DNA of 64,000 bases, from contig KV419420.1 in assembly GCA_001630475.1 (NCBI GenBank), positions 270,097-334,096 on the forward strand, read 5' to 3'. A program made the position numbers and the translations under genes. The notes below the pieces were generated by a model that saw only the letters and a program-made list of their open reading frames with translations, was not told the DNA's origin and ran no database searches. This DNA is from Sistotremastrum niveocremeum HHB9708. Lineage: Eukaryota; Basidiomycota; Agaricomycetes; Sistotremastrales; Sistotremastraceae. Each line of letters begins with the position of its first letter. The first letter of the stretch is position 1. Below are positions 15,027 to 59,396 of this stretch, piece by piece.

Positions 15027-18000
15027 ATGCGACGACCATACTGTGAGTTTCGTAGGAAGTCACTCGATCACTGGAGCGAAGATGGAACCCACTCTACGAG
15101 GACCTTGAAGCCATGTACGGTTGCCGAAATCGACCAAATCGACGACAAGGATAGGTATTCCAGGATCGCCAATCCTTGTACTGATATTAAAGTATGTATT
15201 TTACTATGTTTTATGAGTCACCGCTTCTCATAATTCTTTTTTGAAGACCCAACTGGATGCCGTCTTGAGTAGAGAGAAATCCAAGAAAGCTCGAGGATCA
15301 TTCGCCTGTTTCACTACCATTGATAAAGCGCCAACGCCCGGACTCAACATCGATGGTGTGGGAGACATACCCATCCCAATCAACGAGAAGGTCATCGAAG
15401 AAATCATCAATGCCTACACTCCTGCCACCTCTGCCACCAACAAAGGCAAGAAAGCGTCGAAGGGCAAAAACACAGGCAATAATAGTTGGGAGATCGGAGC
15501 TTCTCAAGCAAGTGACTCATTGGCTTCAACCAGCCATCTACTTACGTGAATCGATAGCTCTCCTTTGGTAATGCTCACTGGACCGAGTGGATTAAATCCT
15601 TTGTTGTCCCTTATGCTGCCAAGTATCTCGATGTGACTTCCGTCTCGAGTTGCGAGCTTAATAGGTTAGTTGTGTATGAAGCGGGTGCCAGGCAAGTCGT
15701 TATCGGTTTGACATGGCACATCATTATATTAACGCATCGTCGAATAAATAGTAGTCCCCTTGTTGATGCAGATCAAAGGTCAGAGCCTCTCTCTTCACGT
15801 CTCATCTGCGTACCAAGACAAAATATGCATAGCGCCGACATCCCAGATAATCTATGCGCTAGGATTTTCATCGGTCTTCCCTCAAGATTCGAAGGAGGTC
15901 TTTTGACCATATCCCATGGAGAAAACAAACAAACCTTTGATGTGGCGAAGGAGAGTGCCTTCTGTACCTCGATTCTGGCTTGCCACACCGATGTCCAATA
16001 CGAATCCCACTACATCACCTCCGGCTTTCAGGTCGCTCTATGCTACGACGTATTCTCTCCTCCAGGTGTTCCAAATTCCGGCTTCCTCGGTAACTCCAAG
16101 ACTGTCGCCGCCATGCGTCATGCACTTCTGTCATGGAAGCAGTCATTTGATGCCTCCGTACCTCAGAAGCTGGCTTATGTAGTAAATTTCTGGGATGAAT
16201 CTGAGGGTCTCATTCAACGTGGACATCTTGAGGGCATCCATATCTATACGGCCAAGCTTCTGCGGGCGTTGGCCAAGGAATGTCATTTTGACGTGTATTT
16301 GGCGAATGCGGAGTTGCAGATCGCTACACCTGCCCTCTATGAGGAATATGACTCAGAGGATGACGTCGGCATCGGAAGGGACGATGGGCCAGATCGCGAA
16401 CGACAATTATCTTTTTCCCGCATTGTGGACCTCGACGGGAAAGACGCCGGCTTTTCCGATTTACATCTGAAGTTCAAGCACCCGGAAGAATTTTTTCCTG
16501 ATAGCCTTGATTCTGGCGAGCCAGTGGACGTCGAGAGTGAAGCATACTCCAGCACTGTGCGTGTTTGTTTCTTTATTAGAGTTCAAGCGACGTTTGCTAA
16601 TTTTCAAATTCGATAATAGTATTATCGGGCAGATATTCGACGTATGTGGGATTCTCTTTCTCGGCGTCACTCATTCAGAATGAATTCCTAGATTATGAAG
16701 AGAAGGTCATCTTAATGTGGCCTCGTAATCGCCGCGAAGCCGTGTTTGGCAAGGACTGGCTTGCAGGAGCAGTTGAGAAATTAAAGACCACAGTCTCAAC
16801 ATCAGCTACGCCAGCCGAGAAAAAGATCGCCGAACGCATGATTTACCACCTCGAAGGCGGGGATACAAGTGTCGCCGCTTGTCGTGAATTATGTGCATCT
16901 GCTCTGAGATGGAATGACTTTGAACTTTGGCTCCGTGCTGCTCGTGTTTCTGACGTCGAACATGCTTCTCCGTCACTGAGCTTTGAAAATTTGATTGATG
17001 CGATAGCGACGTTTGGATTTGATGATTTAAAACCATTGTGAGTCCATCAATGTTATAGCTTCGATATATACTCACGGTTCTTCGTATCAGAGTGACCACC
17101 GCACTTACTAACACGTCATCCAACGCTTATCGACTTGGTCTGCTCACGGCGATCTCGGAATCTCCACTTTCTGAACAATCAGATGTCACGATATGGTGCA
17201 AGGAACAACAAGATCGTGTCGTTCAGAATCTTCGGATCGCCAAGCTGGATGATGTCCCAGCTTTGGTTTCGATTGCACGATTGAAAGGAATCAAATTCTT
17301 CAAGTCTACGTGTGTCTTTTCTCGAACACGATCGAATTTTCGCTAATCATTTGCCTCAGAGTGATCCCGCAACTATTTTCAATGAAATGCGAGCGAGAAA
17401 TCTGGCTTGCTCTACTCCCGAGGCTCCAGTATGACCGTCTTGCGATACCACCTTCGCTAGTACACGTGGATTACGTAATCGATGAAGTGCTTACGTCACT
17501 CATCCAGAATATCGAACCATTCGCAGCTAAGCCGAAACAACCATGGGACAGAAGTCCACCAGATTACGATCCTCGACCAGTTATCGACGCAATCAAACTA
17601 TGCCACTCACTGAATTCTCTTACTCATTGCAACACGATACTGAAGACGCTTCAGGAAAGCGACAACCTTGATCCCGAGATTCGAAAAGCTCGAGCGTCGA
17701 GATTGTATGGCCCGATCATGGCGGCAGTCGTGTCAATCAACGACCCCGAGCCTTCTATAAGATTCGATACTCCGTCTTTCCATGCATTCTCGAAGTTTGC
17801 TGTCAACGAAATTCTAGAAGATGCATTGCATGCACGTGAGCCTGCTTGGGAACGCGTTGTCAAAGCTACAAGGTTGTTAGGAATAGAAGGCGTGCGTCTG
17901 CTAGAATCCAAGTACGTACTTTGCCTCTCAATTATTCGCTTTCTGATTTGTAGCACTTCATAAAGGCTTGGCCCACTATTTAGTTCATCAAATCCCGCAA

Positions 18001-19086
18001 GCAAATCCTCAGCAATCGCAGGAGCGCTGAAGGAAGCCTGGGTTTGCACTCCCAATACTCCAGAACGCGACGCTGTGAATAAACTCATCACACGTCTCGT
18101 CGAAGTCTCGATCGCTAAGGAAAACATCATGTTCGACTCTAAAGATACCTACGAGTATTGGAAGCCTTGGCTCGGAAATTCATTAGCGTTGTTAAAGCTT
18201 TGCTTAGCGGTCAAGAGCGAGGCATCGTTACCGGAACTTTTCTCGCGCCTAATGTCTCCCACCCAGGATTTGGACGAGCACTTCACGAAAGTCGTTCTTC
18301 CATTCGTATCGGCGCTTTGCAAAGAGCTCGCTGACCGGAAGATCGATGTCTTCTCAGAACCTTATCGAAGATTCTGCGAAGAAGCCCTCACCACCTTTAC
18401 CAACAAAATTTTAGGTACTCGACCAGGTGGTGCCGAGAATGCCAGTTCCTTAAGTGAGGCACTTGCAGTGTTGGGATGTGGATGCGAGCCCTGCAACGAG
18501 ATGATCGAGGAGTTGTCGACCCCCGAGACAACTATCACCATTAAACGCGCTGAAAAGGAGCGTAAACATCTAATCAAGAGAATTGGGAAGAAGATGGGAA
18601 TAACATGCCGCACTGTGAAGAGCGGATCTCCACATGGTCTTGAGGTAGGTCCTTCCGTTCATGAATATTTATTCTGCAAGGTGACTAAACATTCCCCGTT
18701 AGATAACGAAACCGGCCTCGCTGATCAACTGGGGAAATTGGGCCAAGTATCAGAAAAAAGCCCTTGATGTACTTACTGCCATTGGATCCGTCGATATCCA
18801 GCGGAAGGTTCTCGGTCAACATTTCACTGGTATTTATGACCGACTTGGTCTTCTGCTGCCTGAAGAAAATCCAGTGGAGACTCAAGATAGCCCGACTCCC
18901 GCTATCGAAACACCGACTCCTCATCCCAATACATCCCAGATAGGTGGCCCTGAACAGACTTCCAGAGGTAGTAAAAGAGCCGTTTCGACTCTTTCGAGTG
19001 TCGAAGAATTAAGCGAAGAACCACAACCAAAACGAAGAAAGACATCGACCGCTCTCTCCGCCAGCTCTCCTTCCCAACGCAAGTGA
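15027..19086 (+). CDS. G1: 2OG-Fe(II) oxygenase-like pseudoenzyme
   Basis: First member of the array. The ATG at 15027 (MRRPYCEFRRKS) matches the G2 start (MRRRY). It has the family layout: N-terminal segment ending NPCTDIK, then TFxxPGLNIDGVG, the oxygenase domain, the WPRNRREAVFGKDWL region, the helical C-half with the GCGCEPC cluster, ITKPASL, and a basic tail PKRRKT. The HxD His is absent: the micro-exon (probably 15755-15778, 24 nt instead of 18) reads PLVDADQ. The distal motif VRHEV..ITSGYR of active copies is VQYES..ITSGFQ here, so the second His and the 2OG-binding Arg are also gone. The reading frame is otherwise open across about 11 exons, so selection appears to keep the protein. 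The intron before the micro-exon seems to use a GC donor (GCAAGT). The terminal (V/I)IDL motif is absent. Confidence 0.75.
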
Positions 19087-19206
19087 ATTTCAGGCACAGA
19101 ATGACTCTTGGAAGTTGGTTATACCAATCGCTTATATTAGTAAGATATCTTCCACACACATATGTCGTCATCAGTAAGAATTTCTGTTAAAAGCATGTAT
19201 AAAATA

Positions 19207-19636: not shown

Positions 19637-19656
19637 GTGACCGCGCGCTCCGTCAC
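19637..19656 (+). promoter_or_regulatory. Two-part GTGAC element, G2
   Basis: GTGAC-CGCGCGCTCC-GTCAC, inverted form with 10-nt spacing, 71 bp before the G2 ATG. Confidence 0.6.
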
Positions 19657-19726: not shown

Positions 19727-22700
19727 ATGAGAAGACGTTATGCTTGTGCATATAAATCGGCACCGAGGACTTCATTCGGCCAGGACATCAATACTACGTT
19801 ATCCAAGGTTTCAATCCCCGCCGACTTGACTGCGGACGACGGCGTGGACGATCAAGACACATACGAAAGGATTGCTAATCCGTGTGACTTGAAGAATATC
19901 AAGGTGCCTCAGCAATGTTTCAGGATTCTTCCAGCTCACTGACTCGATTTTAGGCCGAGCTTTCCGCGGCATTAGAGAGTCAACCAAGCGGCGATAAAGC
20001 TGCTCAGACTCAAAAATCCTTCTCGTTCTGCACGCCTCTTCCTCATGCCCCAACGCCTGGATTGAAGATTGTTGGGATCGGAAGCATCCCACTACCTCTG
20101 ACAGAAAACGGAGCGAAGGAGCTTATCAAAGTCTGCGCTCCCGCGAATACCGTTGCAGGAAAGAAAACGAGCAGTGCGAAGAGTGCAGGGGGTACATGGG
20201 AATTGGCGGCTTCTAAAGTTTGTTATGACATACTATCTTCAATCAATATTCCACTCAAGCGTTCATCTTCAGGTCTCCTTCGAGAATCCACATTGGAATG
20301 CATGGTTGCAATCTACCGTCATCCCCAACATCACGAAGACCCTGGACATAGCTTCCATCTCGGGCTGTCAACTCACAAAGCTGTATATATACGAAAAGGG
20401 CTCTCGGTGAGCCTCCTCCTGTATTGACCTCTTCGTAGCTAACCGTGCGTAGTTTCGTACCTCCTCCAAGGTGAGGCTCCTAAATACTAGTATTCCACAG
20501 CACCTCCCCTCATTCACTTGCTTAAATCTCAGTTCGAGCACTTCAAAATCCGTCTTTGCCTCCCTAGCGATTCTTCTGCCTTCAAAATTCGAAGGCGGTC
20601 TGCTCCGCATGTCGTACGGCGGCCAGGCGAGATCCGTTGATCTTGCTAAAGAGAGCGCTTTCAGCACGTCCATCATAGCTAGCTACTTGGATGTCAAGCG
20701 CGAAGTCAATGCCATCACTAGAGGATACCAGCTCGCCCTCTACTTCGATGTCATCGGTCCTCCGGGTGTTCAGCGACCTGGGCTTTCCGGAAACTCAAAA
20801 TCCATGGCTGCAGCCCGTCACATCTTACTCTCCTGGAAGCAGAGCTTCGACGCCTCCGTTCCACAGAAGTTAGCATATGTTCTCGACGATGACTACGATG
20901 AATTCGACGTAGTAACCCCTGAGCGCCTAAAGGGCTTTGACGCCTATATCGTCCATCAGCTACGCACACTCGCCAAAGAATGTCGGTTCGAGGCGTACCT
21001 GGCTAGTGCCACACTACATGTCTCTAGACCCGCGAACGACTTCATGTACGAGATGGGCCTTTATGACGATGATGATGACATGGAGGATACCCGCTTGGAC
21101 ATCCAAGGCATTATTGGTCTTGATGGAAAAGCACCGACATTTCCGCAATATTCATTGAAGTTCAATCATCCGGGAGATTTCTTCCCGGAGAGCTTAGATG
21201 CGGACGAGCCAGTTGACGAAGATTATGACGGCTATTCGAGTGCAGTGCGTCTTTCATGCTTTGTGGATTATTTGGATGCTAATGAGAATTTGTACCGCAG
21301 TTTGGTCATTCATCTACTCAGAGTATGTCGATCCATATATCTCAGTCATGTCAGACTGCTAATGTCCGCGGTTAGCGTTCAAGCGTGCGGTCGTCTTACT
21401 TTGGCCGAAGAACCGCCACGAAGCCGTTCTGGGAAAGGACTGGCTCGCTGGCGCTACCACAAAGCTGAAGACTTTGACTTCGGCCGCACCAACGGCTCGA
21501 GACAAGAAGCTGGTCCAACGAATGATCTTCCATCTAGAGGGCGGAGCCAAATCCGATACTGCCTGTCATGAGATTTGCTTAGCTGCTTGCCGATGGAAAG
21601 ACTTCAACATCTGGTCGAAGTCGGCCAGTATAGCGACTGCCGCATCCGAATCAGTAATCCTCAAGCACCAAGAATTGGTGAACGCCGCACTTACATTTGG
21701 CTTCGATAAATTACGCGATATGTGAGTCGTGTTCATAACGTCTCAAATCATCACCGTTCTCATGTGCGACCCTCAGGCTGACTAGTACACTCGCCAAGAG
21801 CACTTCAAATGCCCGCCGAGACGAGCTTCTATCGTCAATCTCGGAGTCCGCATTAGCGAACGAGACGAAGGTCAAGGCATGGTGCCAAGAGCAACGCGAT
21901 GTAGCTACCAAGGATCTCAAGTCTGCGACGCTTGACGATGTTAAGGCATTAGTCTCCATCGCCCGATCGAAGGGTATCAAATTCTTCCAAGAAACGTGAG
22001 TTTCACTGAGAATATAAGACTTGCCTGCTGACTTATTGTAACAAAGAATTATCCCCCAATTATTTTCTCTCGAGTGCGACCGCACTGTGTGGACTGCAAT
22101 ACTCTCCGCATTGAAAGCGGAACGCGCTGCGATTGCTCCCTCGCCCAAAGCAGTTGATGACGTGATCAAAATTACGATGACGTCAATACTGGAGAAAATC
22201 GATCCGTTCGCTCTCAAGCCTGCTCCGGCCCACCTTTACGATAACAGTCCCACCTATGATCCTAAACCTGCCATCGAAGCTATACGTCTTTGTGCTACTT
22301 TGAACTCTCTCGAGTCCTGCGGACCTATCTTCGACAAGTTAAAGAAGCTCGATGACGTGGAGGAAAAGATTCGGAAGGCTCGATCTCTTCAAATCTGTCG
22401 ACCTGTGTTAGAAGCGATTGCATCCATGAGTGATCCTCCTACCTCTTTCGCCTTCAATACTCCTGCTTTTATCGGATTTGCCAAGGCAGCTGTAGCTGAT
22501 ATTATCGACCATGGTGTCAAAGAAACCAGCTACGCAGAATGGAAAAGGATAATAAGAGAAGTGATGACGCTAAAGTTTGAAGGGATCGTTCTTCTAGCAA
22601 CAAAGTACGCCGTTTCGGAACCTTCATTGGCTGGCGGAAACTGACGTCAATGAAGACTCAAGACGCTACTCAACGTGGCAGGATCGGAACCTTCTTCGGT

Positions 22701-23816
22701 GCTTCCTTCGACAATCGCAAAGGCTTTGAAGGAAAACTGGACGTATTCTCCGAAGACACAAGAAGGCATCATGGTCCAGAAACTGATCAAGACGCTTATT
22801 GGCGTGTCAATTCTGAGGGCAGATATACTGTACGATGCCTCGAAGTTGAAATCGCCGTGGTTTATTCCCCGGTGGCTTCGGACGGCCGAAGACCTCTTAA
22901 CCCTCTGCTTCTCAACCGAAAGCCCTTCCGCCGTTGCAAGTCTCCTTTCACGCCTCCAGTCTCCCACGACCGATATCAATGCCCACTTGACCTATGTCGC
23001 GGTGCCTTTCATTCCAATCCTCGTTCGAGAACTTGCATCTCAAGACATCAAGATTTCCAGTGCTCCGTATCCTTCCTTCTGCCAGGAGGTACTAGTCGCA
23101 TTCGTCGATAAGGTTCTCGGATCCCGGCCGGCCGCCATTTATAAAGCCGCCACGTTGCGCGACGAATTGGCTGTTATAGGCTGCGGGTGTCATGTGTGTA
23201 ATGACATGATTGTACAAGTCGCCGGCAATCTCCCTGTTGTTGTAATCAAGCGAGCCGAAAAAGAGCGAAAGCATCTCGAGCAGCGCATCAAAGCCCAACT
23301 CGGTTTAGTGTGTCGGACTATCAAGTCTGGATCGCCGCATGGCCTTGAGGTGAACACTTTGACTATAGCGCATTGCCGAACCACTGATCAGAAAATGGCT
23401 TTCAGATCACGAAGCCCCCCTCACTCGTAGAATTCGGCGCATGGTCTATTCGTCGAAAGGTCGCAACCGATGCGTTGGATGCCATTGGTTCCTCAGAAGT
23501 GCAACAGGCTGTCCTTGGTGCAAGCTATACTCGCATCATGACTCGCCTCGGCCTTCCTTGCGCTACTTCTGCCAAGGCAGCCGAGCCGCAAACTGTCCAA
23601 TCGAAATCCAATCTACCCCCTCCCACTGCTCCATATACTGCTCATGTCCATTCCGCTACTATACCGCCCACTCAAATATCGTCGGTACCGCCTCCGATGA
23701 AAACCACCGCCTCGACAGGCACCAAAAGATCGTTGCCTTCGTCCCTCGTTTCAGTCGATATAGTCCCACGGAAGCGGAGCAAAGCGGCATCCACATCGAC
23801 TATCCACACTTCTTAG
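19727..23816 (+). CDS. G2: 2OG-Fe(II) oxygenase-like pseudoenzyme
   Basis: Second array member, closest to G1 in its start (MRRRYACAYKS) and text. Family layout: NPC..LKNIK, APTPGLKIVGIGSIPLPLTE, the oxygenase domain, VVLLWPKNRHEAVLGKDWL, the helical C-half with GCGCHVC, ITKP, and the basic tail PRKRSK. The 18-nt micro-exon is present at 20453-20470 but encodes FVPPP, so the HxD becomes P-P-S. The distal motif reads VKREV..ITRGYQ, which removes the second His and the 2OG Arg. The second micro-exon keeps its 22-nt length. The tail ends STSTIHTS with no (V/I)IDL motif. All exons stay open, so it is a likely expressed pseudoenzyme and not a decayed gene. Confidence 0.75.
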
Positions 23817-24336
23817 GATTAATCCCGCTTTCTGACATGTTTCTTTTTTCTTGGTTGTTCGCATCTCCACATGTTTTAATCGCTTTCTGTATATTTTTCT
23901 TCAACTTGTTTCTTGATGCATATCATTATTTATGTAAATATCACCGCGTCCTTAACACCCGATAGATGATCCAACCTCCTATACTTCCTCCAAGCTCATC
24001 ACATAGGCTCGGATTGCTGCGTCAAAAGAAAAGAAAAGTGACTGCGCGTGCGTCACGGTCACGGTCAAGCTGACTCGGAGTTCCTCCATCGTCCCTAGAT
24101 TTGCCACACTTGTCTTATCTTGAGCGCGTATTCGACAGTCGGCCTACACGCTTTCACGTTCACACCTGAAGATTTGGACTGCAGCACAACGGCCTCCTTG
24201 TTACTGCCTTCCATCTTGACCCGCAATTTTCCGGCTACAAACTTGGGAAAATCCTTGACACAAGCTCCTGGTCAGTAGGAGATCAGGATGCATTTACTTT
24301 ATTTAGTACTAAATGTAGCCCATCAGAACATATTTT
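23817..24336. other. Spacer G2-G3
   Basis: About 520 bp with the G2 3' UTR and the G3 promoter element at 24038. The element lies 281 bp before the chosen G3 ATG, farther than in most copies, so a longer 5' UTR or an unseen 5' exon is possible. Confidence 0.5.
24038..24056 (+). promoter_or_regulatory. Two-part GTGAC element, G3
   Basis: GTGAC-TGCGCGTGC-GTCAC, inverted form with 9-nt spacing. Confidence 0.55.
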
Positions 24337-26599
24337 ATGAACGCTGAAGCGTTGCAAGCGGTCCACGGAGGCGAGGGTGGCATGGAGGAGAAAATTGCTC
24401 GCACCGGGTTGAGAGGATCCAACGGGACTACCGATGGCGAGGCGAAGAAAAAATTGAAGAGTCCGATCAAAGATATCCAGGTGCCTGTTACTTCTGTGTA
24501 ACGAATGCAGGAGGCTGATTTTGTTTATAGGCCGCTCTCAGCGCCGCACTTGGAACCATCACGAAATCGGGCTTTACAGGAACATTTGCATACTCAGAAA
24601 CCTTCAAAGTCGCGCCGTTGCCAGGCTTAAAGATCTCTGGGATTGGCAGGATTTCTCTACCAATGACCGAAGATAGCGCACGGGAGTGTATCAAGCTCTG
24701 CGACTCGTTGGTGGCCGGAGGGACGAGCGTCGCTGACAGGAATATGTGGGAGTTAACTGCCGATAAGGTGTGCTTCATATTCACCTTCTGTCACCCCGCT
24801 ATGCATTCTGAATGAATACTCCAGATTCTCTTGGAGAATTCATTTTGGGATGTGTGGATGAAGACAATCGTTCTGCCGCAAGTTGCACGGCAGCTTGGAG
24901 TTGCTCGCATTGCGAGCTGGCATCTTTCCAAACTGACTCTGTGCGGAAACGGACCCCGGTGAGCTCGGTTCGACATATGTTGCTCTCAATTAGGTACTGA
25001 CATCGCTTATGCAGCTCCTCCTCTGATGGCACGTGAGTCACCAACATTGACATCGCTGAATGCATCCTCACGTACTGACAGGATCAAACCATCTAATGAA
25101 GCCTTCGCCACGATCGTGATAACTCTACCTTCCACCTTTGAAGGCGGTCAGCTCCATGTTTCTCACAGCGGCCTCACGAAGGTCTTCGACGTGGCGAAGA
25201 ACAGCACTTTCTCAACGTCAATCGTGGCATCATACTCCGACACTCATCACGAGCTACAAGCAATCACCGCCGGGTATCGACTTGCATTGTCTTACGATCT
25301 GGTCGCTCCAGCCAACAAGCCACGTCCCAACTTATCGGCTTATTCTCAAGCTGCGAAGGCCACTCTCCGTGTTTTATTGTCATGGGCGCAGACGTTTCAG
25401 GATCATACCCCCAATAAACTCGCCTACGTTCTCGACCACAAATTCGTCAAAGCGTCATCACCTAGAATCCCTGTCCTCACCGGAATTGACGCTTGCAAAG
25501 CTGATATCCTACGATCTATGGTGGAAAGTTGTCAGTTTCGAATGTATATCGCCAAAGCAAAATTCAAACAGTCTGGGCAGTCAAGAAGATACGACGGGTA
25601 TGAGATAGATGAGGTGGAAGACGAAGATTTGACCATCACCGATTTCGTCGATCATAGAGGGAAAGCAATAACGTTTCCGACAAATCCAATTCATTATCGA
25701 CATCCTGAGGAGTTCATCCCACATAGCCTATCTCATGGGGAGCCCGATGAGGAGGATTACGAGGACACAGACGACGTCGGCTACGACGGGGACGAAGACG
25801 ACGAAGACCTTGGTGGTCGTCACATCGAATTTGGTGAGGCCACCAATTTTATTCCGTCGTTCTCAGCCTTCTCACCGAGAGACCAGGATACATCAGAGCT
25901 GTTATATTGCTTTGGCCGATCAACAGGGATGAGCACGTCATGGGAGACTATTGGCTTGATATAGTGTCATCGCAATTGCGGAATCCTGCTTCCACAGTCC
26001 CCTTATCTCAACAGGTGGACATAGTGAGGCGTGTCTTGTCGTGCTTGGAGAGGGGCTCGATCCATCGTGACGCTTCACACGGAGTTTGTCTGAAAGCCCT
26101 TGAGTGGAGAAATTACGAGCTCTTCTTGCACATCATCAAGATCAAGGGCTTTGCCTCTCGTGTTCCGGACATCTTGTCAAATCATGAATTGATCGAACTG
26201 GTCACCGTCTTCGGCTTCGAGAAGATTCGTGGTCTGTAAGTCAATCTCCTTTTAAAAATGCGGTCCACTCTTCACAATTAGTTATCTAGATTGAATGATG
26301 TTCTCATGAACAGCCGTTCAATGGCGTACAACTCTGATCTTATCGAATCTTTCGAGACGGGATTAGGCGCCCGCAGCGAAATCAAGCTTTGGTGTCAAGA
26401 GAGGCGAGATACGGCAATCCGGAACTTTGAACCCCCAACCGCAATTTATGCCGCCACTTCCACTTCAGTTTCTTCCCACGGAGGGCCAATATTCTCTCCA
26501 ATTTTGGTTTCTGGCGCAGAGACAAGCTCCAAACGGAAATCTCCCACTGCTTCATTCGCCGAGGTGACCGAACCACGTCCCAAGCGCAAGGCTACATAG
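24337..26599 (+). CDS. G3: short 2OG-Fe(II) oxygenase-like pseudoenzyme
   Basis: Third array member, about 2.3 kb instead of 4.1 kb. ATG at 24337 (MNAEALQAVHGGEGG). It keeps the PLPGLKISGIGRISLPMTE segment, the oxygenase domain, the VILLWPINRDEHVMGDYWL region and the start of the helical part (WCQERRDTAI). It then passes directly into a Ser/Thr-rich linker and a basic tail, RPKRKAT. The whole C-terminal half with the Cys cluster and ITKP region is missing. The micro-exon 25015-25032 (18 nt) reads SSSDG, so the HxD is lost. The distal His and Arg are kept (THHEL..ITAGYR). The sequence between the oxygenase domain and the WP motif is extended with Asp/Glu (25735-25830), and the 22-nt second micro-exon is not obvious. 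The frame is open, so this looks like a remodelled short protein. The N-terminal start is the weakest point. Confidence 0.65.
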
Positions 26600-27168
26600 T
26601 AAGTATGATCATGACGCACAGTACCTGTACTTATACCTGGCCATTTGCGCTTGCAGGCTGTACACACGAATCTTCAGAACTCTCTCTCGAAGGATTGGGA
26701 ATATTTTTATGGAGATATCTATTGCCTATCTGAATACTTATCTTCTCCGCTTCCCCAATTATCGTTTCCTTTCATCCCTTGTCAATCATGCTTTATGACA
26801 TTCTGCTCCTCAAGCCTCATTGCTGCCCTGGAGTATCCAATCTGCAAAAATTGCCAATTATCGTACTTTAGAGCATTGCGTATGGGTCGAGCGCATGCGC
26901 CTTACTCTCTGGCCAGATTCTGCATTTTGGATTTTCTTGGACGTTTCGATCCTGTGTATTTCGTGACTTGCGTACAAGCCTCCGTAGATTGCTCGAGAGA
27001 CCGCTGAGAACGCAAGGCAAGGCGAACACGAATGTTTGCTGCGTGACTGCGCGCTTGTCACAGTACCGGTCCTCGCTTCTTTCACCGGCACTTCGTCGTC
27101 GTCACGACGGTCGTACTGTGCTCCTTTATGATCCATACAGCTACTCATACATCTCTGCTTTGGCCGTA
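26600..27168. other. Spacer G3-G4
   Basis: About 570 bp. No remnant of the missing G3 C-terminal half was recognised by eye. It holds the G4 promoter element at 27043. Confidence 0.5.
27043..27061 (+). promoter_or_regulatory. Two-part GTGAC element, G4
   Basis: GTGAC-TGCGCGCTT-GTCAC, inverted form with 9-nt spacing, 126 bp from element start to the G4 ATG. Confidence 0.6.
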
Positions 27169-40400: not shown

Positions 40401-40783
40401 TCGATTCACTCATGCTTCATCCCATCCACACCTGATTATGGGTTCCTTTCATGGTATTTTGATAACCCACTCACATAGATAGATCTGTCATGTCATCGTT
40501 GCATTTGGATCATGTGTCACTGTGCTTATTGATTTCTCTGATCTGTAAATTATCTTAGCAATAGAGCTTGTTCGTATTTTTGACAGAATTTTTGACAACT
40601 CGTTGCGGAGATCCGTGACGCCACGTTATGTCACAATCCGGGCCTCATCCTTCGTCTCCAGTCTCGACTGGCATTACACCCACCTTTTCTTGGATTTATG
40701 GCAGTCTGAACAGTGCAGGCATTGGATGATACAGAACTCTGCCCCGATACGGACACTAAAGATCTCTCCGTGTCTGATTGGCC
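40401..40783. other. Spacer G6-G7
   Basis: About 380 bp with the G6 3' UTR and the G7 promoter element at 40615. Nothing else is seen. Confidence 0.55.
40615..40634 (+). promoter_or_regulatory. Two-part GTGAC element, G7
   Basis: GTGAC-GCCACGTTAT-GTCAC, inverted form with 10-nt spacing. This is the only copy whose core lacks CGCG. It lies about 150 bp before the ATG. Confidence 0.5.
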
Positions 40784-45016: not shown

Positions 45017-45213
45017 TGCACAATGCGGCAACGCAGTTTCCCTTGTCCACGTTATATCATTGGCATTACTATTCGTAATTATATATATAACGATCGAATA
45101 CTTTAGTTTAAGATTTTTCTTTGGTGTTGGACTTTAAGCTGGTGGCGTTGAGTTCCCATCGAAAGCGTGGTGCTGACTTCGCCTGTCCAAACATTGACAT
45201 GACACGAAAGTAG

Positions 45214-45239
45214 TGACAACGCGGTGTGACAACGTGACC
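45214..45239 (+). promoter_or_regulatory. Two-part GTGAC element, G8
   Basis: GTGAC-AACGCGGT-GTGAC (45214-45231), direct form with 8-nt spacing, plus a third GTGAC at 45235-45239. It starts about 100 bp before the ATG at 45315. Confidence 0.6.
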
Positions 45240-48300: not shown

Positions 48301-49562
48301 GGCCTACTTGAAGCAACGTGACATCAATGCCGACTTCCCCCCAACAATGGCCAGGCTTTTGAAGAAGGAATGGCCTTACAGTGCAGCTACGGAAGAAGGC
48401 GCTGCAGTACAGAAACTGATCCAGAATCTCGTCATCGCTGCACTTTCGCGAGCCAAGGTCCTATTCGAAGAATACAAAATCCCGTCATATTCACGGTCAC
48501 ATCCCGACTTCTTGAGAGGTCCAAAGGACCTCCTTCTTCTATGTCTCGATACCAATAATGCTGCCTTGGCATCCAGACTTCTCACACGCCTGCGGGCGCC
48601 AAAGAAGGACGAAAAGCAGCACTTTACCCATGTAGCTGTACCATTCATCAGTATTCTTTGCACAGAACTGGTATCCCGGCGTATCCAAATATCCTCTGAT
48701 CCATACGGCGAGTTCTGTCATGATGTCTTGGTCGCCTTCGTCGACAAAGTCCTTGGACCCCGACCTCCTGCGAATGGACCTCCTCCGCGCGAGCTACTAG
48801 CGCAGATGGGATGCCAGGGAGGGTGCAAATTGTGCAATGATATGATCGGGCTCCTTACGAGGGAAGGATCTGAGCTCACGATCGAAATCAGGCGCCCTGA
48901 GAAGGATCGTAAGCACCTCCAACGTCAAGCAGCTGCTTCTCGCCTTGGGTTTACATTCGGTACCATCCGTGATCATTCACCGTATGGTCTTCAGGTATGC
49001 CGGACCTCTTATCCTTGAGACAATAGAACTAATTTACCGCCTTAAGATCACCAAACCAGCTTCGCTAACCGCTTTGCCTGTCTGGAATGACCGAAAGAAC
49101 CTGGTTTGTTCAGTGATCAAGGACATCCATCATAAGGAGCTTCAAGGTATCTTGCGAGACGATTATGGTCGTATTATGGCCCTACTTGGTTTAGCTACGG
49201 TTCCCCCGATTCCAGGCGCGAATCCTACAGCGCCGACGGAAGCGACCATTCCCTCAGGACAGCCCACCCAGCAGCATCCTCAAACGAATACTGAGCGAAC
49301 CCAGACGAAAACTGCCAGTGCTCCTGGACCGGATAATTCGTCAGGTTCAGCGCCTACCGGCAAGGAGAACAAAAGACCTGCGTCGACGTTTGAAATACTT
49401 CTTACCCCAAGGAAACGGAGGAAGACAAACTCCGCTACAATCGTTCAAGTTGATCCTTGCATTCCTTCGCCGACGTTTGAGATACTTCTTACCCCAAGGA
49501 AACCGAGGAAGACGAAGTCTGCTGCAATCATTGATCTTTGCAGTCCTTCACCCGTGAAGTAG
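45315..49562 (+). CDS. G8: 2OG-Fe(II) oxygenase, active site intact
   Basis: Array member. ATG at 45315 (MKRPVNRATTTG); a second in-frame ATG at 45393 (MAQSTHEDEEDD) could be used instead. Acidic region, then NPCEDIR, APVPGLRVLSLG, FGKGERKIVDK. The micro-exon 46068-46085 (18 nt) encodes SLPHQ and splices to D. The distal motif is VRHEV..ITSGYR. The 22-nt second micro-exon is present. In the C-half MGCQGGCKLC is the Cys cluster and ITKPASL follows. The tail is duplicated: two 87-bp units, 49386-49472 and 49473-49559, each encode TFEILLTPRK.. The first unit has drifted (VQVDPCIPSP) and the second ends AAIIDLCSPSPVK. The frame is open throughout. Confidence 0.8.
49386..49559 (+). repeat. 87-bp tandem duplication in the G8 tail
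   Basis: Two in-frame units of 87 bp (29 codons) sit at the end of G8: 49386-49472 and 49473-49559. Both begin ACGTTTGA.ATACTTCTTACC. It doubles the basic nuclear-type patch. Only the second unit keeps the terminal IIDLC motif. Confidence 0.9.
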
Positions 49563-50199: not shown

Positions 50200-53157
50200 C
50201 TTCTCCCTCAACGGAAGCCTCGGTGCTCCCACCCTTTGAGTCGTGCTCTACTGCACTCTAATACGGCTTTTAAATGAGAACTCAAGTGAATCAAGTCGCT
50301 GCATCTGGTATTAGCCTGCTGACTGATTCATAGAAGGCGTCCGTGGAACAGTCAGAACGCGGAGAGTCTGAAGAACATGCCACCGAGGATGAAGTCGAAG
50401 ACGACGAGGAAGAAGAAGACGACGACGACGACAGTGATGATGATGAAGACGAGTCTGATGAGAGTACCGACGACGAGCCTGAAGTGAAGATCTCAAATCC
50501 TTGCAAAGACATTAAAGTACGTCGTGCTGCTTGATGCCCGAGATACACCTCAGCTCATCGTTGCGTAGACTGGGCTGGCAGCAGCACTCAAGACGAAGTC
50601 TAGCTCAACAAACCAAGGCACTTTTGCGCTCTCTAAGACGTATCAGGACGCTCCAGTGCCTGGGCTACGCGTCGTAGGCTTGGGCAGGGTCGTTCTTCCC
50701 TTGGACAAGAAGAATGCCCAGAAACTCATTGGAGTATGCAAACTGGCTCCTTTTGGGAAGGGAGAAAGGACGATAGTCGATAAAAACGTTCGTGATACAT
50801 GGGAGCTCGCCCCGGAGAAGGTATGCAGGACTTTAAAGCCGATCACATCGATCATTGATGCCACCACCCTTTGCCAGGTGTCCTTCGACAATCGACATTG
50901 GGATTCCTGGTTAAAGACTACCGTCATTCCGTATGTCAATCGCCAACTAGGAGTGTCAGCTATCGCTAGATGCGAGCTTTATAAGCTATTGGTCTACGAA
51001 AAAGGGTCCCAGTGAGTACTTGTCTCGTCGACGATGCGATCGATGATGATAGGATACTGATGGATCTTTAGTTTCTTACCTCATCAAGAGTCAGCACGTC
51101 TCGTCGCCCTTTCAGTATCATATTCATCATGCTCAACCCGTTTTCAGCACCGAGAAAGCCAAGGGGATGTTTGGCACAGTCATCATTGTCCTCCCCTCAG
51201 CCTTCGAAGGAGGCCAACTCCACATGTCTCATAGCGGTCAAACCAAAATCTTTGATATCGCCGAAGATAGCGAGTTTTGCACCTCCGTCATGGCCTGGTA
51301 TAGCGATGTTCGTCACGAAGTCAAGCCCATCACCAGCGGATACCGCTTAGCTCTCTCCTACAATCTCATCACACCAACCGGCTCTCCACGTCCCGGTCTT
51401 TCCGATCACTCTCAAATTGTCGCCGAAGTCCGCCACGTTCTTATGTCTTGGCGACAGAACTTTGCCCAGTCCACGCCCGATAAGCTCGCATACATCCTCG
51501 ATCATAAATACTCTTCGTTTGGTATCGGAAGCGGTGTTTTGAAGGGCGCTGACGCTCAGAAAGTCGAAATATTACGTTCCCTGGCTAAGGAATGTCGATT
51601 CAAGATTTATTTGGCGTCGGCCGAGCTCCATGTCAGCGGCGGTGCGGATGGGTACGACTCCGAGGAGGGATGCGCAGGAGGGATGGCGTATGTAAACGAG
51701 AAAGACTTAACGATAGAGAACGTCGTCGACCTTGATGGAGAGGACGCGGAATTTGCAGATGAGGATTTGGTTCTTCAGAATCCTGATGATTTCATTCCAC
51801 ATGCATTGGATGCCGGAGAGCCTGACAATGAAGAAAACGAGGGATACACGGGGAATGTGGGTTGATTTATTCTCGAGCTTTTCTCTTTACTTACGAGAGA
51901 CCATTTAGGAGGGTGGTGGAATCGAATATTGTAAGGTTCCCACGGACATCTACTCTTGATTGGTCTGGCTAACGCTTTGTTCTGTGCAGGGTACAATCAA
52001 ACCGTTATTCTGATCTGGCCTCGAAACCGACAGGATGCGGTCTTCGGCGCAGATTGGCTAGCAGGTGCGACCCGGAGACTGATGTATTCGAACTCCATCT
52101 CGGCGACGCCTGCAGAACAGAAGTTGGTGGAGCGGGTGTTAGTCCGCATTGAGAGCGGAACAATGTCTGACGAAACCTGTCGTGAGCTGTTCAAAACGGC
52201 GATAGGATGGCAGGACCTCAAGCTCTGGCTTCGCATCGCTCGTATTGCCAAAATCGAGAGCCGGACTTCGGTTCTCACCTGTAAAGACCTCACAGGCGCA
52301 GCGGTCACTTTCGGATTTGATAAAGTGCAGTCTTTGTGAGTGATACTCGTGATAGACGCGCGAACTTCTGTTGAAAGTGCCGCAGGTTGACTAATATCCT
52401 TTTCCTGTCTCCATCTAATGCCTACCGCCTCAATCTCGTCGCTGCGATCAACGAATCAAAACTCTCCAAACAGGCCGATGTGGCAGCCTGGTGTGAAGCG
52501 CAACGAAAGCTCATCATTGAAAGCTTGAAGATTGCTACGCAGGATGATGTTCCAGCTCTCGTTGCGGTTGCTAAATCTAAAGGGATTTCTTTCATTCAAT
52601 CGAGGTAGATTTCGAACAACACGTATAATTTTAGCACCCTTACTCACATATTTCGCATAGCATCATCCCTCAATTACTATCTTTGAGTTGCAAGCGCTCC
52701 TTCTGGTTTACATTCCTCGAAGAACTTCAGGCCCAAAGAGACGCGATCGGCCCATCGGCTCAAAAAGTCGCTGACGTGATCAAAGCGACGCTTACGTCAT
52801 TACTAAAGAAAATTGATCCCTTGACAGTGAGGCCTCAGGTTCCGCGTGCCTACTCTTACGATACCACGCCCGAGTACGACCCGCAACCCACCATACAGCT
52901 ACTCAAGATATGCCTCAAGTTGGATTGCCCGGATCTATGCGCCACCGTTCTTGGGAAATTGATGAAAAAGAACAGTGAAGGAGATGAGCGTACCCGCCAA
53001 CGACGAACGTCCCAAGTCTATCAGCCGGTTATGACGGCACTTACGTCTTATACCAAGCCCCCTTTCTCTATCAACCTCGAAAATCCACCCTTCGCCGAAT
53101 TCATGAAGATGGTCGTTGGTGATGTCGTCGACATCAGCCTGGGCGGATGGAATATAG

Positions 53158-53165
53158 ATTGGGGA
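53158..53165. repeat. Target-site duplication, left copy
   Basis: ATTGGGGA, 8 bp, identical to 53675-53682. The uninterrupted sequence is seen in G8 and G10 (..GATTGGGGAGCAG..). Confidence 0.95.
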
Positions 53166-53674
53166 TAGTGTTCTGAGGTCCAGTCACGACTGGACTTTTG
53201 ACCCCCGGAGGGTGCGACTGGCAACTGCCGGTCCAGTTGCCGTCCAAAATTTGGCGTGACTGGCAACTGCGACTGCGGTTGCGGTCCGGCGACCGGTCAT
53301 GGCTGCGACTGGTTGCGCAACCAGTCATGGCCAGTTTTTCCAGTCACAACTGGGCTCATGTCAATATTTTAATCATTATTATATTATATATACTGTATAT
53401 ACACCTCATATGATGTGGTACATGCATATAGAGACCAATATATACCAGATATGTCACCATAAACACCCATTTGAGACCCAAAATACCCTCCAGGTACCCT
53501 GGTTGGGGACCCTTAAGGGTCCTCGGTTGCGACCACGGTCACGACCGGTCATGACTGCAGTTGCCGGTTGCCTGATTTTCCAAGAACCTAGGCAACCGGC
53601 AACTGCGGTCCGGTCACGGTCCGGTTGCGACTGCCGGTTGCCACCGGTCACGGCAACTGGACCTTGGAACACTA
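53166..53674. mobile_element. 509-bp hAT-type MITE inside G9
   Basis: The ends are inverted repeats: left TAGTGTTCTGAGGTCCAGT, right in reverse complement TAGTGTTCCAAGGTCCAGT. It is flanked by a perfect 8-bp duplication, which is the hAT hallmark, and a TAGTG-type end fits that superfamily. The interior has many short direct and inverted repeats of the GGTTGC, GCAACTG and ACCGGT kind, plus an AT-rich centre. No transposase is encoded. The insertion lies in a coding exon of G9, and the perfect duplication suggests a recent event. Confidence 0.93.
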
Positions 53675-53682
53675 ATTGGGGA
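53675..53682. repeat. Target-site duplication, right copy
   Basis: Second copy of ATTGGGGA, directly after the right terminal repeat of the hAT-type MITE. Confidence 0.95.
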
Positions 53683-54945
53683 GCAGTGATCGATGCAACG
53701 AAGGTCCTCAAAGCGGAAGGGATCGCGCTTCTGAGTACAAAGTGAGTGTGCTCACGTCATTAGTCGTAACGAGCTCATGGATTGCCTGTTCAAGGGTCAT
53801 GGCCCACGTAGAGCAACGGAACAGCAAGCTCGACTTCGCATCTGCGATGGCTAGGCTTTTGAAGCAGAAGTGGCCCTACAATGCTGCTACGGAAGAAGGT
53901 GTCGCAGTACAGAAACTGATTCAGAATCTTGTAATCGCGGCACTCTCGCGAGCCAAGGTCCTATACGAAGAATATGAAAGCTCGTCGTATCCTTATTCAC
54001 GGCCCGATTACTTACAACGTCCGAAGGAGCTGCTCCTTCTCTGCCTCGACACCAATAATGCTGCATTGGTGTCCAGACTTCTCACACGTCTGAAGACGCC
54101 AAAGAAGGACGACAAGCAACACCTCACTCAAGTAGCTTTGCCATTCATCATCGTTCTTCGCGCAGAATTGGTTGCGAGGGGTATCAGAATGTCCTCTGAT
54201 CCGTACGGCGGGTTCTGTCATGACGTCATTGTCACTTTCGTCGACAAAGTGCTTGGACCGCAACCTCCTGCCAATGCACCTACTCCACACGACCTAGTAG
54301 CGCACATAGGATGTCAACCGGCCTGCACGCTGTGTAACGATATGATCAGCCGCCTTACAGGTTCCCAGTCCACTATCGAAATCAGGCGACCAGAGAAGGA
54401 TCGTAAGCACATCGAACGTCAAGCAGCCGCTTCTCGCATTGGATTTAGATTTGATACCATCCGTAACAGATCACCGTATGGTTTGCAGGTATGTCCTTCG
54501 ATCTAGTTCTTGCGATAACGAAATTGAATAATACATGAAGATCACTAAACCAGCTTCACTAACTGCTTTCGGTACCTGGAATGAACGCAGGATGCTGGTA
54601 CATGCAGTGATCGCGGCCATTCGTGACCACATGGAGCTTCAAGGTGTCTTGCGCGACGACTATGCTCGTATCATGGCCCTCCTCGGTTTAGCTACGGTTC
54701 CCCCGATCCCAGGTGCAATTCCAGCACCGGTCCAGGCTGGGTCCTTGGGACAGCCTACACAACCTCATGCTCAGACAAACACTGCCGATGCTTCAGGTCC
54801 CGGTAATTCCTCAGGATCGGCACCTACTCGCAAGAAGAACAAACGACCGCCGTCGACGCCCGAAGCCGGTGCAGCTCCAAGGAAACGGAGCAAGAAAAAC
54901 TCGACTGCAGTCATTGATCTCTGCAGCTCTTCGCCTGACCAGTAA

Positions 54946-55266
54946 AATCTGTACAACACTGCCTCATCTTCACTAACTCCTGCTTCTAATTATAATATCT
55001 GCCTCGATTGTCATCTTCATTTTTTAGAACACATCGCTACTGTATACTAATTGTATTTACTATGTGGACTATCCAGAGATCAGTGTACAATCTAATGAAC
55101 ATTTTCCCTTCAAACCTACGATCCATATCATCGCAATGAGGCCAACTCAAGCAAAGGCATCGGAATGGCCGTGACAACGCGACGTGACAGCGTGACTCTT
55201 CTTTCAGGCTACCTTCTCCCGCCTATTCGACTCGCGCTCTACCCACGCAGGCTTCACGTTTCTGGA
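54946..55266. other. Spacer G9-G10
   Basis: About 320 bp with a 3' UTR similar to that of G8, a very short trace of the same ABC-linked flank (about 55110-55165), and the G10 promoter element. Confidence 0.6.
55171..55196 (+). promoter_or_regulatory. Two-part GTGAC element, G10
   Basis: GTGAC-AACGCGAC-GTGAC (55171-55188), direct form with 8-nt spacing, and a third GTGAC at 55192-55196. It lies about 71 bp before the ATG. Confidence 0.6.
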
Positions 55267-58200
55267 ATGGCCGACCCAGTAGACCAAATAAATTCCCTTG
55301 ATCCTGACCATCATGCACCTCAATCAAATCTGGATATCGAGTCCCCAAACGCGTCCGTCGAACAACCAGCAGATACAGAGCCTGATGCCGATGATGCAGG
55401 TGACGACGACGGCGACGAGGAAGGTGGAAGTGAGGACGATGAGAGCACCGACGATGAATCGGAAGAGAAGATTGCCAATCCTTGTATTGATATTAAAGTA
55501 CGTGTTCGTTCTTCATGCCACCTTGAAATGCAGCTCACCCTGTTATATATAGACTGCATTGACTGCAGCACTGAAGACCAAACCGACATCTAATTTTCAA
55601 GGCAGCTTTGCATTCTCCAAGACGTATCAAGATGCCCCAATGCCTGGGCTGCGAGTCGCCGGCTTGGGCAGCGTGGCACTCCCACTGACGAAGAAAAGTG
55701 CCCAGAATCTCATCAAAGTCTGCGAGCAGGCACCGTTTGGGAAAGGGGAAAGGACTATAGTGGACAAGAGCGTTCGGGATACATGGGAGCTTGCTCCAGA
55801 GAAGGTGCCTCTAAATGCTAACGCAAAAAGATATGGTATTGACCCCTGTCCAGGTTTCTTTCGACAATCGACATTGGACGTCTTGGTTAAACAACACCAT
55901 GATTCCTCAGATATCCCAAAGCCTCGGAGTGTCATCTACTCCCAGATGCGAGCTTTATAAGTTGTTGGTATATGAGAAAGGGTCACAGTGAGTATCCGTC
56001 AAGTTCACGATAATATAATGATTAATGGATATCTAGCTTCTTGCCGCACCAAGAGTGAGCATTCCCTACTACCCTCCTGTCGATATTCATCCGCTGACTC
56101 TACCTCCAGTACCGAGAAGGCAAAAGGGATGTTCGGCACAGTCATCATCGTCCTGCCCTCAGCATTCGAAGGCGGCCAACTTCACATGTCCCACAGCGGA
56201 CAAACGAAGATATTCGATATCTCAGCAGACAGCAACTTCTGCACCTCCGTCATGGCATGGTATAGCGATGTCCGTCATGAAGTCAAGCCTATCACCAGCG
56301 GATATCGACTAGCACTTTCCTACAATCTAATAGCACCAACCGGTTCTCCCCGTCCCGGTCTTTCTGGGTATTCCCAAACGGTATCGGAAGTGCGGCACGT
56401 CCTGATGTCCTGGCGACAAAGCTTCGCAAAATCCACACCGGATAAACTTGCCTATATCCTCGATCATGAATATTCAGCGTTCGGCATCGGAACTGGTGTT
56501 CTGAAGGGTGCAGACGCTCATAAAATCGAGATCCTACGTTCGCTCGCTAAGGAATGTCGATTTAAGATCTATCTCGCATCTGCTAAACTCCACGTTACTG
56601 GTCAAGGCGAGGGGTACGATGACGATGATTACGAGATGGGATGTGTATCGGAGAAGGAGTTGACGATTGAGGACGTCGTGGATCTTGATGGGGAAGAACC
56701 CGATTTCGCGGATGAGGACCTGGATCTTAAAAATCCTGATGATTTTATTCCTCACGCCTTGGATCACGGAACGCCGGACGACGAAGAATATGAGGGATAT
56801 ATGGGCAACGTGAGTGTTTCTGGATTCTCGAGAACTATGTACCCTTGAGCTGATTTCTACTTTCAGCACGGTGGAGAACTTCAATATTGTAAGAGCCTCC
56901 TACGCTTATTTCGGACTCACTAAGCTTGCACTTGGTATAGGGTATAATCAGACCGTTGTCCTAATTTGGCCCCGGAATCGACACGACGCGGTCCTCGGCG
57001 AAGATTGGCTTTCAAGCGCTGCCTCCCGACTGAAGCATTCAAATTCGACGGCCGCAACTCCTAGAGAGAAGAAATTGGTAGAGCGGGTTTTATTCCGCAT
57101 AGAGGGCGGAGCAGTATCAGACGACGCATGTGGTGAACTGCTCAAGTCAGCCCTGCGGTGGAAAGATGCCCAGCTCTGGCTTCGCATAGCCCGAATTGCC
57201 AAGATAGATACACGATCGTCGGTACTCACGTGTCAAGACTTGGCTGATGCAGCTGTCGCTTTGGGTTTCGAAAACTTGGGACCTTTGTGAGCGACATGCG
57301 ATGAAAGCTCCGAGCTCTACTAAAGTGCCTTCTAGATTGACCAATATTCTCTTCATGTCTCCCTCGAATGCATACCGTCTCGACCTCATTGCAGCGATCG
57401 CGAATTCCGAGCTCTCCAAGCAAGAAGATATCGCAACCTGGTGCAATTTGCAGAGAGAACTCGTTCTTCAAAGCTTGAAAGTAGCGACGCAAGATGACGT
57501 TCAGGCTCTTGTCAGCGTTGCTCGATCTAAAGGAATCGCTTTCGTCCAATCTAGGTAGATTTCTCAGCTCAAATTTTCTCGAGTCCATACTCACAGACCT
57601 TTCGCAGCATTATTCCCCAATTATTATCTCAGAATGGCAAACGCTCCTTCTGGTTCGCGTTCCTGGAAGGACTGTTCACGGAAAGAGATGCGATCGGACC
57701 CTCAGCCCAGGAAGTCACCAACGTGGTCAAAACGACGCTTACGTCACTCCTCAACAGAATCGATCCCATCACAGTGAAGCCTGGCAATCCAAATTTCTGG
57801 ACTTCCAGGGTCGAATACGACCCACAACCTACGATCCAACTAATCAAGACCTGCTTGAATTTGGAATCGCCGGAACTATGCTCCATCATCCTGGAGAAAC
57901 TCATCAAGAAGAATGGCGAAGGAGACGAGAGTACCCGAAAAGCGCGCACGTCTCAAGTATTTCAACCGGTGATGACGGCACTTGTATCCTTTACCAATGC
58001 TCCTTATTCTATCAGCCTTGATGTCCCTCCCTTCCTCGCTTTCATGAAGATGGTCGCTGGTGATGTCATCAATATCAGCCTGAACCAGTGGGACGCAGAT
58101 TGGGGAGCAGTCATTGACGGGGCGAAAGTCTTCAAGGCCCAAGGAATCGTGCTTCTGGGAACAAAGTGAGTACACCGGTGCCACTGCTTCCCTTCGTGCA

Positions 58201-59396
58201 GCGCTTATTAGTGTCTTTTCAAAGGGTTATGGCGCACCTAGAGCAGCCAAATACCAAGCCCGACCTCGCCTCTGAAATTGCCAGGCTTCTGAAGCAGAAA
58301 TGGGCATTCGACGCTGCGACAGAAGAAGGTGCTGCGGTGCAGAAACTTATCCAGACTCTCATCATCGTCGCAATATCGCGAAGCACGGTTCTCTACGAAC
58401 AATACCCGAATTCGTCATATTCGACACCCGATTACATACAAATTCCCAAGGACCTCTTGCTTCTCTGCTTTGACACCGATAACGCGGCTTTATCTTCCCG
58501 GCTTCTCACCCGACTGAAGACCCCGAAAAAGGAAGACAAGCAACACTTTACCAAAGTAGCTTTACCGTTCATCGTGGTGCTTTGTCAAGAGTTGGCATCT
58601 CGCGGTATCAGTCCATCTTCGGATCCTTACGGTCCATTCTGTCGAGACGTTTTGGTCACCTTCGTTGATAAGGTCCTCGGAGCTAAACCTCCCGCCAACG
58701 CACCTACTCCGTCCGAATTGCTCGCTCGTATAGGATGTTCAGACATGTGCTCACTATGCGACGAAATGATCCGTCTCCTCCAAGGATCCGAAGCCACCAT
58801 CGAAATCAGACGCGCAGAGAAAGATCGCAAGCATCTTGAACGTCAAGCCACCTCCTCCCGCCTCGGATTCACATTCAAGACTATCCGCGGTGGATCTCCT
58901 CTTTGTCTTCAGGTGTGTTATATTCCGCGATCGCGAGAATGATTGAGCTGATTGAACTGTGAAGATTACCAAACCAGCTTCCTTAACCGCTTTCGGTACA
59001 TGGCATGAACGCAAGGACATCGCACTCAAAGCCATCAAAGCCATAGGCTCCCACAGATCCCTCCAAGAAATTTTAGGCGATGATTATTCTCGAATCATGG
59101 CCTTACTCGGCTTAGCTGCTGTCCCTACAATTCCCACCGGCGCTCCTTCAGCTACAGCCCAAAGCGGTTTATCAGGTCGAACTGGACAGGCCCATGTTCT
59201 GTCGAACGGTGCGCCCCAGGCAAACGCCACAAGCTCCTCACGAGCCAGCACGTCCTCCGCCTCGGCGCCTATTCAGAAGAAGACGAAAAGAGCACAGCCT
59301 TCGACGGCGACAGCTGCTCCAGTACCTCGAAAGCGGAGTAAAACGAGTTCCCAATCTGAAGTCATCGATCTTTGTAGTCCTTCGCCACAGAAGTAG
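55267..59396 (+). CDS. G10: nuclear-type 2OG-Fe(II) oxygenase, intact reference copy
   Basis: Best-resolved array member. Eleven exons keep one frame: 55267-55497, 55553-55804, 55854-55987, 56037-56054, 56110-56809, 56867-56888, 56941-57286, 57336-57554, 57608-58165, 58225-58912, 58965-59396. They encode 1,199 residues. Residues 1-77 are acidic and end STDDESEEKIANPCIDIK. The oxygenase domain follows with iron ligands H210 and D212 (PHQD, mostly from the 18-nt exon) and H268 (VRHEV), and 2OG Arg R278 (ITSGYR). Next comes the VVLIWPRNRHDAVLGEDWL motif, then a long helical region with GCSDMCSLC, ITKPASLTAFGTW, and a tail PRKRSK...EVIDLCSPSP. It has no signal peptide or membrane segment, so it is not an ER collagen-type hydroxylase. 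The substrate is unknown; a nuclear protein is my inference. Confidence 0.87.

Follow-up and report, generated by a model that had tools for sequence, protein, structure and literature searches.

The window analysed here is a 64,000-nucleotide stretch of the genome of the basidiomycete Sistotremastrum niveocremeum HHB9708 (listed in the NCBI taxonomy under Sertulicium niveocremeum, Agaricomycetes), corresponding to positions 270097 to 334096 of contig C27 in a 34.7-Mb genome of 111 contigs. It carries ten paralogues (G1–G10) of a large protein built on a 2-oxoglutarate (2OG)-Fe(II) oxygenase fold, arranged head to tail on one strand. Comparison of all open reading frames (ORFs) in the window, together with spliced, homology-guided models that have intron positions in common, placed these genes at 15027–59396, exactly the span that a preliminary description of the sequence had assigned to a ten-copy array. 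The array does not stop there, however: a genome search with the homologue P0003 revealed six further copies downstream of the window (G11–G16; C27:341,650-390,162), so that the cluster comprises 16 or more copies spread across 105 kb of the same contig, and two copies lie elsewhere in the genome (G17 on contig C56 and G18 on contig C16). These copy counts are lower bounds, as the search scored 40 of 75 candidates and returned at least 63 matches; G12, G13, G14, G16 and G17 are short. The G8 model (of two, the one agreeing with the annotated S. suecicum protein P0001 was used, the other having a worse tail) has the same length as P0001 at 99.0% identity, those of G1 and G2 agree in length with their S. 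suecicum counterparts (Table 1), and the model of G15, outside the window, is identical to the annotated S. niveocremeum protein P0005 over 1097/1097 residues. Among the matches listed, which were partly length-filtered, S. suecicum orthologues were recognised for G1, G2, G8 and G11 (the last at 86.7%).

From N- to C-terminus the proteins consist of a P4H/EGLN-like oxygenase fold, an alpha-solenoid, a small CxCxxC...H domain, a basic tail and a C-terminal motif of the SUMO-interacting type (SIM). The double-stranded β-helix typical of the P4H/EGLN type is present. An iron triad (HxD and a distal His) with the accompanying Arg is intact in six of the ten copies (G4 and G6–G10), which score 30.8–36.6 bits against PF13640 (cut-off 27; a single G6 exon on its own scored 20.1 bits); G1, G2, G3 and G5 lack the HxD, give no match to this profile and are for that reason not claimed as oxygenases. 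Both the assignment to large P4H-type oxygenase paralogues and the mixed catalytic status proposed earlier are thus borne out. The strongly acidic N-terminus described at that time is found in G4 and G6–G10 and is weaker or absent in G1–G3 and G5; G3 is also internally shortened. The triad and 2OG-binding Arg recur in 112 of 126 homologues. Outside the genus, 110 of 120 show the HDHR signature, nine have a gap at HxD followed by HR, which may reflect gene-model errors, and P0006 has HDRR.

Several other assignments were considered. TET/JBP and AlkB readings were dropped, as no such Pfam match appeared in six family proteins (E up to 0.1) or in ten window pieces (E up to 1). An endoplasmic reticulum collagen prolyl 4-hydroxylase seemed unlikely from the charged N-termini, as judged by inspection and a residue count. 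The C-terminal CxCxxC...H domain has a weak fold resemblance to R3H domains (Smubp-2, KhpB/EloR), with an R-x-H motif in place of the R-x3-H of R3H domains; it gave no Pfam match, no solved relative by sequence (E up to 10) and none by Foldseek under 0.001, and whole P0003 found one weak solved-structure chain by sequence (E 2.1). In P0007 (Mycena venus), P0014 (Favolaschia claudopus) and P0026 (Mycena sanguinolenta) the C-terminal part contains a PF04082 Fungal_trans domain; these joins in three Mycenaceae proteins would be either fusions or merged gene models.

A [VI][VIL][DE]L motif lies within the last 30 residues of 72 of the 123 listed homologues (P0001–P0123, four of them without an organism name), compared with a mean of 0.4 (maximum 3) in shuffles and 1.1 (maximum 6) in random windows. 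It reads VIDL in 60 proteins, is followed by T in 58, and starts 5–11 residues from the C-terminus; outside the genus it is found in 71 of 117. A basic cluster is located within the last 90 residues in 106 of the 123 homologues (random windows: mean 12.8, maximum 22), in keeping with the nuclear-type tails noted previously. The motif also follows catalytic status: 70 of 109 homologues with HDHR carry it against 2 of 14 others, and within the window it is carried by all six triad-intact copies and by none of the four without HxD, although the copies are related and the association may therefore reflect few independent events. VIDLT is the core of known SUMO-interacting motifs of the PIAS/RNF4 type, and by this likeness in sequence the family tail would be a SUMO-binding element. 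The predicted structure of P0003 has a disordered tail, although P0003 itself lacks the motif.

The second shared feature lies upstream of the genes. The preliminary description had noticed a promoter element common to the array, and most of the genes indeed have in common GTGAC-CGCG-GTSAC. The corresponding pair pattern (GTGAC-N8-GTGAC or GTGAC-N9/10-GTCAC), derived from the array promoters themselves, has nine matches in the window, all 81–299 bp upstream of array starts (G1–G8 and G10); nine of ten genes thus carry it within 400 bp, compared with 0.02 in shuffles (maximum 1). Among plain words in the sequence ahead of the ten starts the excess was only slight: one of 8 letters occurred in 5 of 10, where shuffles reached 4 at most, and one of 10 letters in 4, where they reached 3. 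The strict pattern with the CGCG core occurs in the promoters of eight of the ten window genes; upstream of G9 there is a one-letter variant beginning ATGAC. Across the genome it gave 32+23 strand hits (55) against 0+0 for the reversed pattern, amounting to 44 distinct sites. A GCGC-core control gave 3+3 hits, its three sites all matching the CGCG pattern as well, and scrambled half-sites gave 0+1.

Ten of the 44 sites lie upstream of family genes (G1–G6, G8, G10, G12 and G17). Four of the non-family sites are found 17–27 bp before the predicted ATG of genes for a HIRAN/SNF2 protein (RAD5-like), RPA1, PSF1 and a family-B DNA polymerase; the RPA1 and PSF1 domains were named by Pfam, while POL2 and RAD5 are our readings of the polymerase and HIRAN+SNF2 matches. 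Another site precedes a predicted gene without Pfam match by 25 bp, and another a gene read as a short-chain dehydrogenase by 82 bp. In all, six predicted gene starts lie no more than 100 bp from one of the 34 non-family sites, the other sites having no start that near in these ab initio models (the gene assigned to a site was the best-scoring one per direction rather than the nearest, and nine sites were viewed with about 1 kb on each side). Sites with similar flanks occur at L109, L111, L112, L124, L129, C27:396650 and C27:400034, with DUF6535 genes on L111 and L112. What is independent in the promoter evidence is the excess across the genome together with the replication genes, and the weight given to the four replication/repair genes is a matter of judgement rather than of a formal test. 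In Cryptococcus neoformans, the promoters of periodically expressed replication genes are enriched for a CGCG-core motif (PMC5137879). The present element resembles the SBF/MBF sites of G1/S genes in its CGCG core and in the replication-like genes nearby; unlike those sites, the core is here flanked by a GTGAC pair. On sequence grounds, the array would be tied to the G1/S programme.

In both trees a single group, with a Shimodaira-Hasegawa-like approximate likelihood-ratio (SH-aLRT) support of 100, unites the cluster copies, G17 and the S. suecicum proteins; the expansion is therefore lineage-specific, as had been suggested. G18 falls outside this clade, among other Agaricomycetes and on a long branch. 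Its triad is present and its last residues read VIDLTLSP, but the Cys cluster is absent from its model, which includes a frameshift step, and to call G18 the ancestral type is a guess. Several adjacent copies are closest relatives (G1-G2, G6-G7 and G8-G9-G10). A single loss of HxD was not upheld: in the first tree the losses form one subclade apart from P0005, while the larger tree needs three changes, one of them forced, with G14 (N-terminal part missing) counted among the others. NG86 estimates of dN/dS for 8 of the 45 copy pairs (G6 and G9 as read-through models) were 0.26 for G8-G9, 0.16 for G8-G10 and 0.14 for G9-G10, and 0.16 for G6-G10 and 0.19 for G2-G10, both of the latter at dS above 2.6; G6-G7, G1-G2 and G4-G10 were saturated. 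By domain the ratio was 0.06–0.34 (G8-G9, G8-G10, G9-G10, and G6-G7 where estimable). The copies are thus old and mainly under purifying selection, and a recent adaptive expansion is unsupported by these pairwise values, which cover 8 of 45 pairs and no site-wise test. The earlier idea of rapid evolution holds for turnover by truncation, insertion and frameshift but not for the measurable pairs, at 0.14–0.26. Among the damaged copies, the C-terminal half of G6 contains either a frameshift near 39089 or an alternative or compensating 96-nt intron, and that of G9 is broken by an insertion whose terminal inverted repeats begin with TAG, with an in-frame TAG stop at its left edge. An 8-bp target duplication and terminal repeats beginning with TAG are features of hAT elements, and the insertion looks like a hAT-type miniature inverted-repeat transposable element.

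Beyond the genus, homologues are widespread in Agaricomycetes under names such as hypothetical protein, with P0075 and P0115 as members from Coprinopsis cinerea, and we found no functional study of the family in the open-licence PMC text, in agreement with the lack of an established function stated before. The core architecture is common with bacterial proteins of about 780 residues annotated as 2OG-Fe(II) oxygenases, which align end to end from the oxygenase to the CxCxxC...H domain; they differ in a shorter helical part and, in the alignment, have no acidic N-terminus or SIM-type tail. A search with the metagenome protein P0124 gave 3757 matches, and among the best 120 the named ones are bacterial; the name YbiX carried by some metagenome records is unsupported, the NCBIfam scores of P0242 and P0124 being far below every cut-off. 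Relatives are encoded on 416 prokaryote genome stretches, and in neighbourhoods from 75 of the 80 loci kept there was no recurrent partner (the most frequent neighbour occurs at 6 of 75 loci), so that an operon context was dropped. By our reading of the neighbouring genes, a primase-like gene lies near 6 of 75 loci and AAA-ATPase-like and HNH-like genes each near 4, the latter two reminiscent of a Septu-type pair. Among characterised enzymes, the P4H/EGLN hydroxylases (P. putida P4H, PHD2/EGLN1 and OGFOD1) match about 200 of some 1160 residues; unlike them, the fungal family adds the large solenoid, the Cys domain and the basic/SIM-type tail. The TET/JBP dioxygenases of fungal transposons likewise belong to the 2OG superfamily, with HxD or HxE, and have several copies in some fungi (PMC12730594); unlike them, the array has no transposase gene visible between its ten copies. 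Four features had been missed earlier: the SIM-type motif, the bacterial relatives, the greater extent of the cluster and the occurrence of the promoter element at replication/repair-like genes as well.

Other genes flank the array (Table 1). To its left, a 6.2-kb stretch is enclosed by 66-bp inverted repeats of 98.5% likeness; it contains an alpha-kinase gene, an ORF read as integrase-like and a 935-N gap, and looks like a cargo-carrying DNA transposon. An ABC transporter gene adjoins the end of the ten copies.

Table 1 Features of the window and its oxygenase-family array (positions in the window).
Feature	Position	Strand	Details
Predicted protein	525–3202		about 847 aa, CxxC-type patch, no Pfam match (two ORFs, Cys piece)
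Inverted-repeat stretch	3440–9609		candidate transposon; N gap at 8241–9175
Alpha-kinase gene	3695–6036	−	PF02816
Integrase-like ORF	7310–8121		a reading, no Pfam hit
Glycosyl hydrolase genes	10789–14417		tandem pair matching family 12
G1 promoter element	14946–14963	+	
G1	15027–19086	+	1169 aa; S. suecicum orthologue P0122, 96.9%; two GC-AG introns in model; without HxD, distal His or Arg; retains Cys cluster and basic tail; no SIM
G2 promoter element	19637–19656	+	
G2	19727–23816	+	1184 aa; S. suecicum orthologue P0121, 94.2%; without HxD, distal His or Arg; retains Cys cluster and basic tail; no SIM
G3 promoter element	24038–24056	+	
G3	24337–26599	+	647 aa; HxD lost, distal His and Arg present; most of solenoid and Cys domain missing; basic tail present
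G4 promoter element	27043–27061	+	
G4	27169–31349	+	1176 aa; triad intact; SIM-type tail VIDLS; precise start uncertain
G5 promoter element	31819–31837	+	
G5	32018–35842	+	1107 aa; HxD and distal His lost, Arg and Cys cluster present; no SIM
G6 promoter element	36016–36034	+	
G6	36217–40400	+	triad intact; SIM-type tail VIDLC; start 36217 or 36379
G7 variant element	40615–40634	+	GTGAC pair without CGCG core
G7	40784–45016	+	triad intact; SIM-type tail IIDLC; start 40784 or 40925
G8 promoter element	45213–45230	+	
G8	45315–49562	+	1232 aa; triad intact; SIM-type tail IIDLC
G8 tail repeat	49377–49529		66-bp segment in two tandem copies, repeating an LTPRK basic stretch
G9	50274–54945	+	triad intact; SIM-type tail VIDLC; C-terminal half broken by insertion
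Insertion in G9	53166–53674	.	509 bp; perfect 8-bp target duplication ATTGGGGA; terminal inverted repeats starting TAGTGTTC
G10 promoter element	55171–55188	+	
G10	55267–59396	+	1199 aa; triad intact; SIM-type tail VIDLC; cleanest copy
ABC transporter gene	59575–62359	−	

Taken together, the best explanation we can offer, though a tentative one, is that the array encodes nuclear protein hydroxylases that are guided by SUMO and belong to the G1/S replication-repair programme, accompanied by derived pseudo-oxygenases. According to this proposal, a large nuclear 2OG-Fe(II) oxygenase would have undergone a lineage-specific tandem expansion, and the six triad-intact copies, with their P4H/EGLN-like fold, would hydroxylate a protein side chain. 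The basic tail would target the proteins to the nucleus and the VIDLT/VIDLC motif would recruit them to SUMO-modified partners, while the solenoid and the CxCxxC/R3H-like domain may grip a partner protein or single-stranded nucleic acid. Transcription together with G1/S replication-repair genes would be directed by the GTGAC-CGCG-GTSAC element, and because the element is common to such genes, replication-fork or chromatin proteins would be the likeliest substrates. The long HxD-less copies, which keep the Cys cluster and basic tail and have mostly lost the SIM, may persist as pseudo-oxygenases, perhaps serving as competitors without catalysis or as scaffolds.

A number of observations weigh against this explanation. 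The tail motif is missing from 51 of the 123 homologues; P0003, G12 and G17 have the triad but no SIM (the ends of G12 and G17 being short), and G11, without HxD, nevertheless ends in ATIDLCTPSP. The promoter element was first read from the array promoters, so that its fit there is partly circular, and GTGACN{8,10}GTSAC without the core is hardly enriched genome-wide (222/227 against 201/211 reversed). No strict element lies upstream of G7, G9, G11, G14–G16 or G18, and none near six MCM gene places; 30 of the 44 sites adjoin neither family genes nor recognised replication genes, eight have flanks that sort them into two groups (one linked by 30 bp only), and another two make up a pair. What the analysis shows is the architecture, the state of the triad, the conservation of the motif and the shared promoter; the nuclear location, SUMO binding, G1/S timing, protein substrate and pseudo-oxygenase role are inferred from these.

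Other explanations have to be set beside it. The P4H-like fold could instead act in replication or repair on DNA or RNA gripped by the R3H-like domain, oxidising or demethylating its bases or nucleotides; we regard this as unlikely. We give similarly little credence to ordinary drift, in which redundant tandem copies of a housekeeping nuclear oxygenase would be partly decaying and would have inherited their promoters, with no function at the level of the array: G3, G6 and G9 are indeed damaged or shortened, promoters can be inherited by descent and several neighbours are closest relatives, but the promoter element persists despite synonymous sites near or at saturation for most tested pairs, and the HxD-less G1 and G2 keep full-length frames with orthologues 94–97% identical. 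Quite improbable is a birth-and-death family for recognition or immunity against transposons, viruses or non-self nuclei, with the dead copies as decoys or scaffolds, since the truncations, insertion and frameshift of the cluster, the few S. suecicum orthologues recognised among the matches listed and the AAA+HNH-like genes near a few bacterial relatives are countered by purifying selection on the measurable pairs, by the well-kept triad outside the genus (with a gap at HxD in nine of the remainder), by the lack of a recurrent bacterial partner and by PADLOC, whose best matches were generic 2OG profiles for all six proteins scanned.

If the proposed nuclear hydroxylases exist, an oxygen- and iron-dependent enzyme would have been added to the replication programme. 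A bolder version, which we consider doubtful, would see here a new class of SUMO-guided replication-fork oxygenases, in which an architecture shared with bacteria gained a nuclear and SUMO-binding tail in Agaricomycetes and was then multiplied in this lineage into a cell-cycle-driven array. Pseudo-oxygenases, mostly without a SIM, would there counterbalance the catalytic copies, and the replication or repair of DNA would be coupled to the state of oxygen, iron and 2-oxoglutarate. The promoter element and the motif in the tail offer two new handles on the function of a blankly annotated family found in many mushroom-forming fungi and a large bacterial set, and from them follow specific predictions: that the proteins bind SUMO, reside in the nucleus, are expressed in S phase and act on a substrate linked to replication or repair. 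The array, moreover, provides natural HxD-less copies in which such proteins can be studied after the loss of catalysis.

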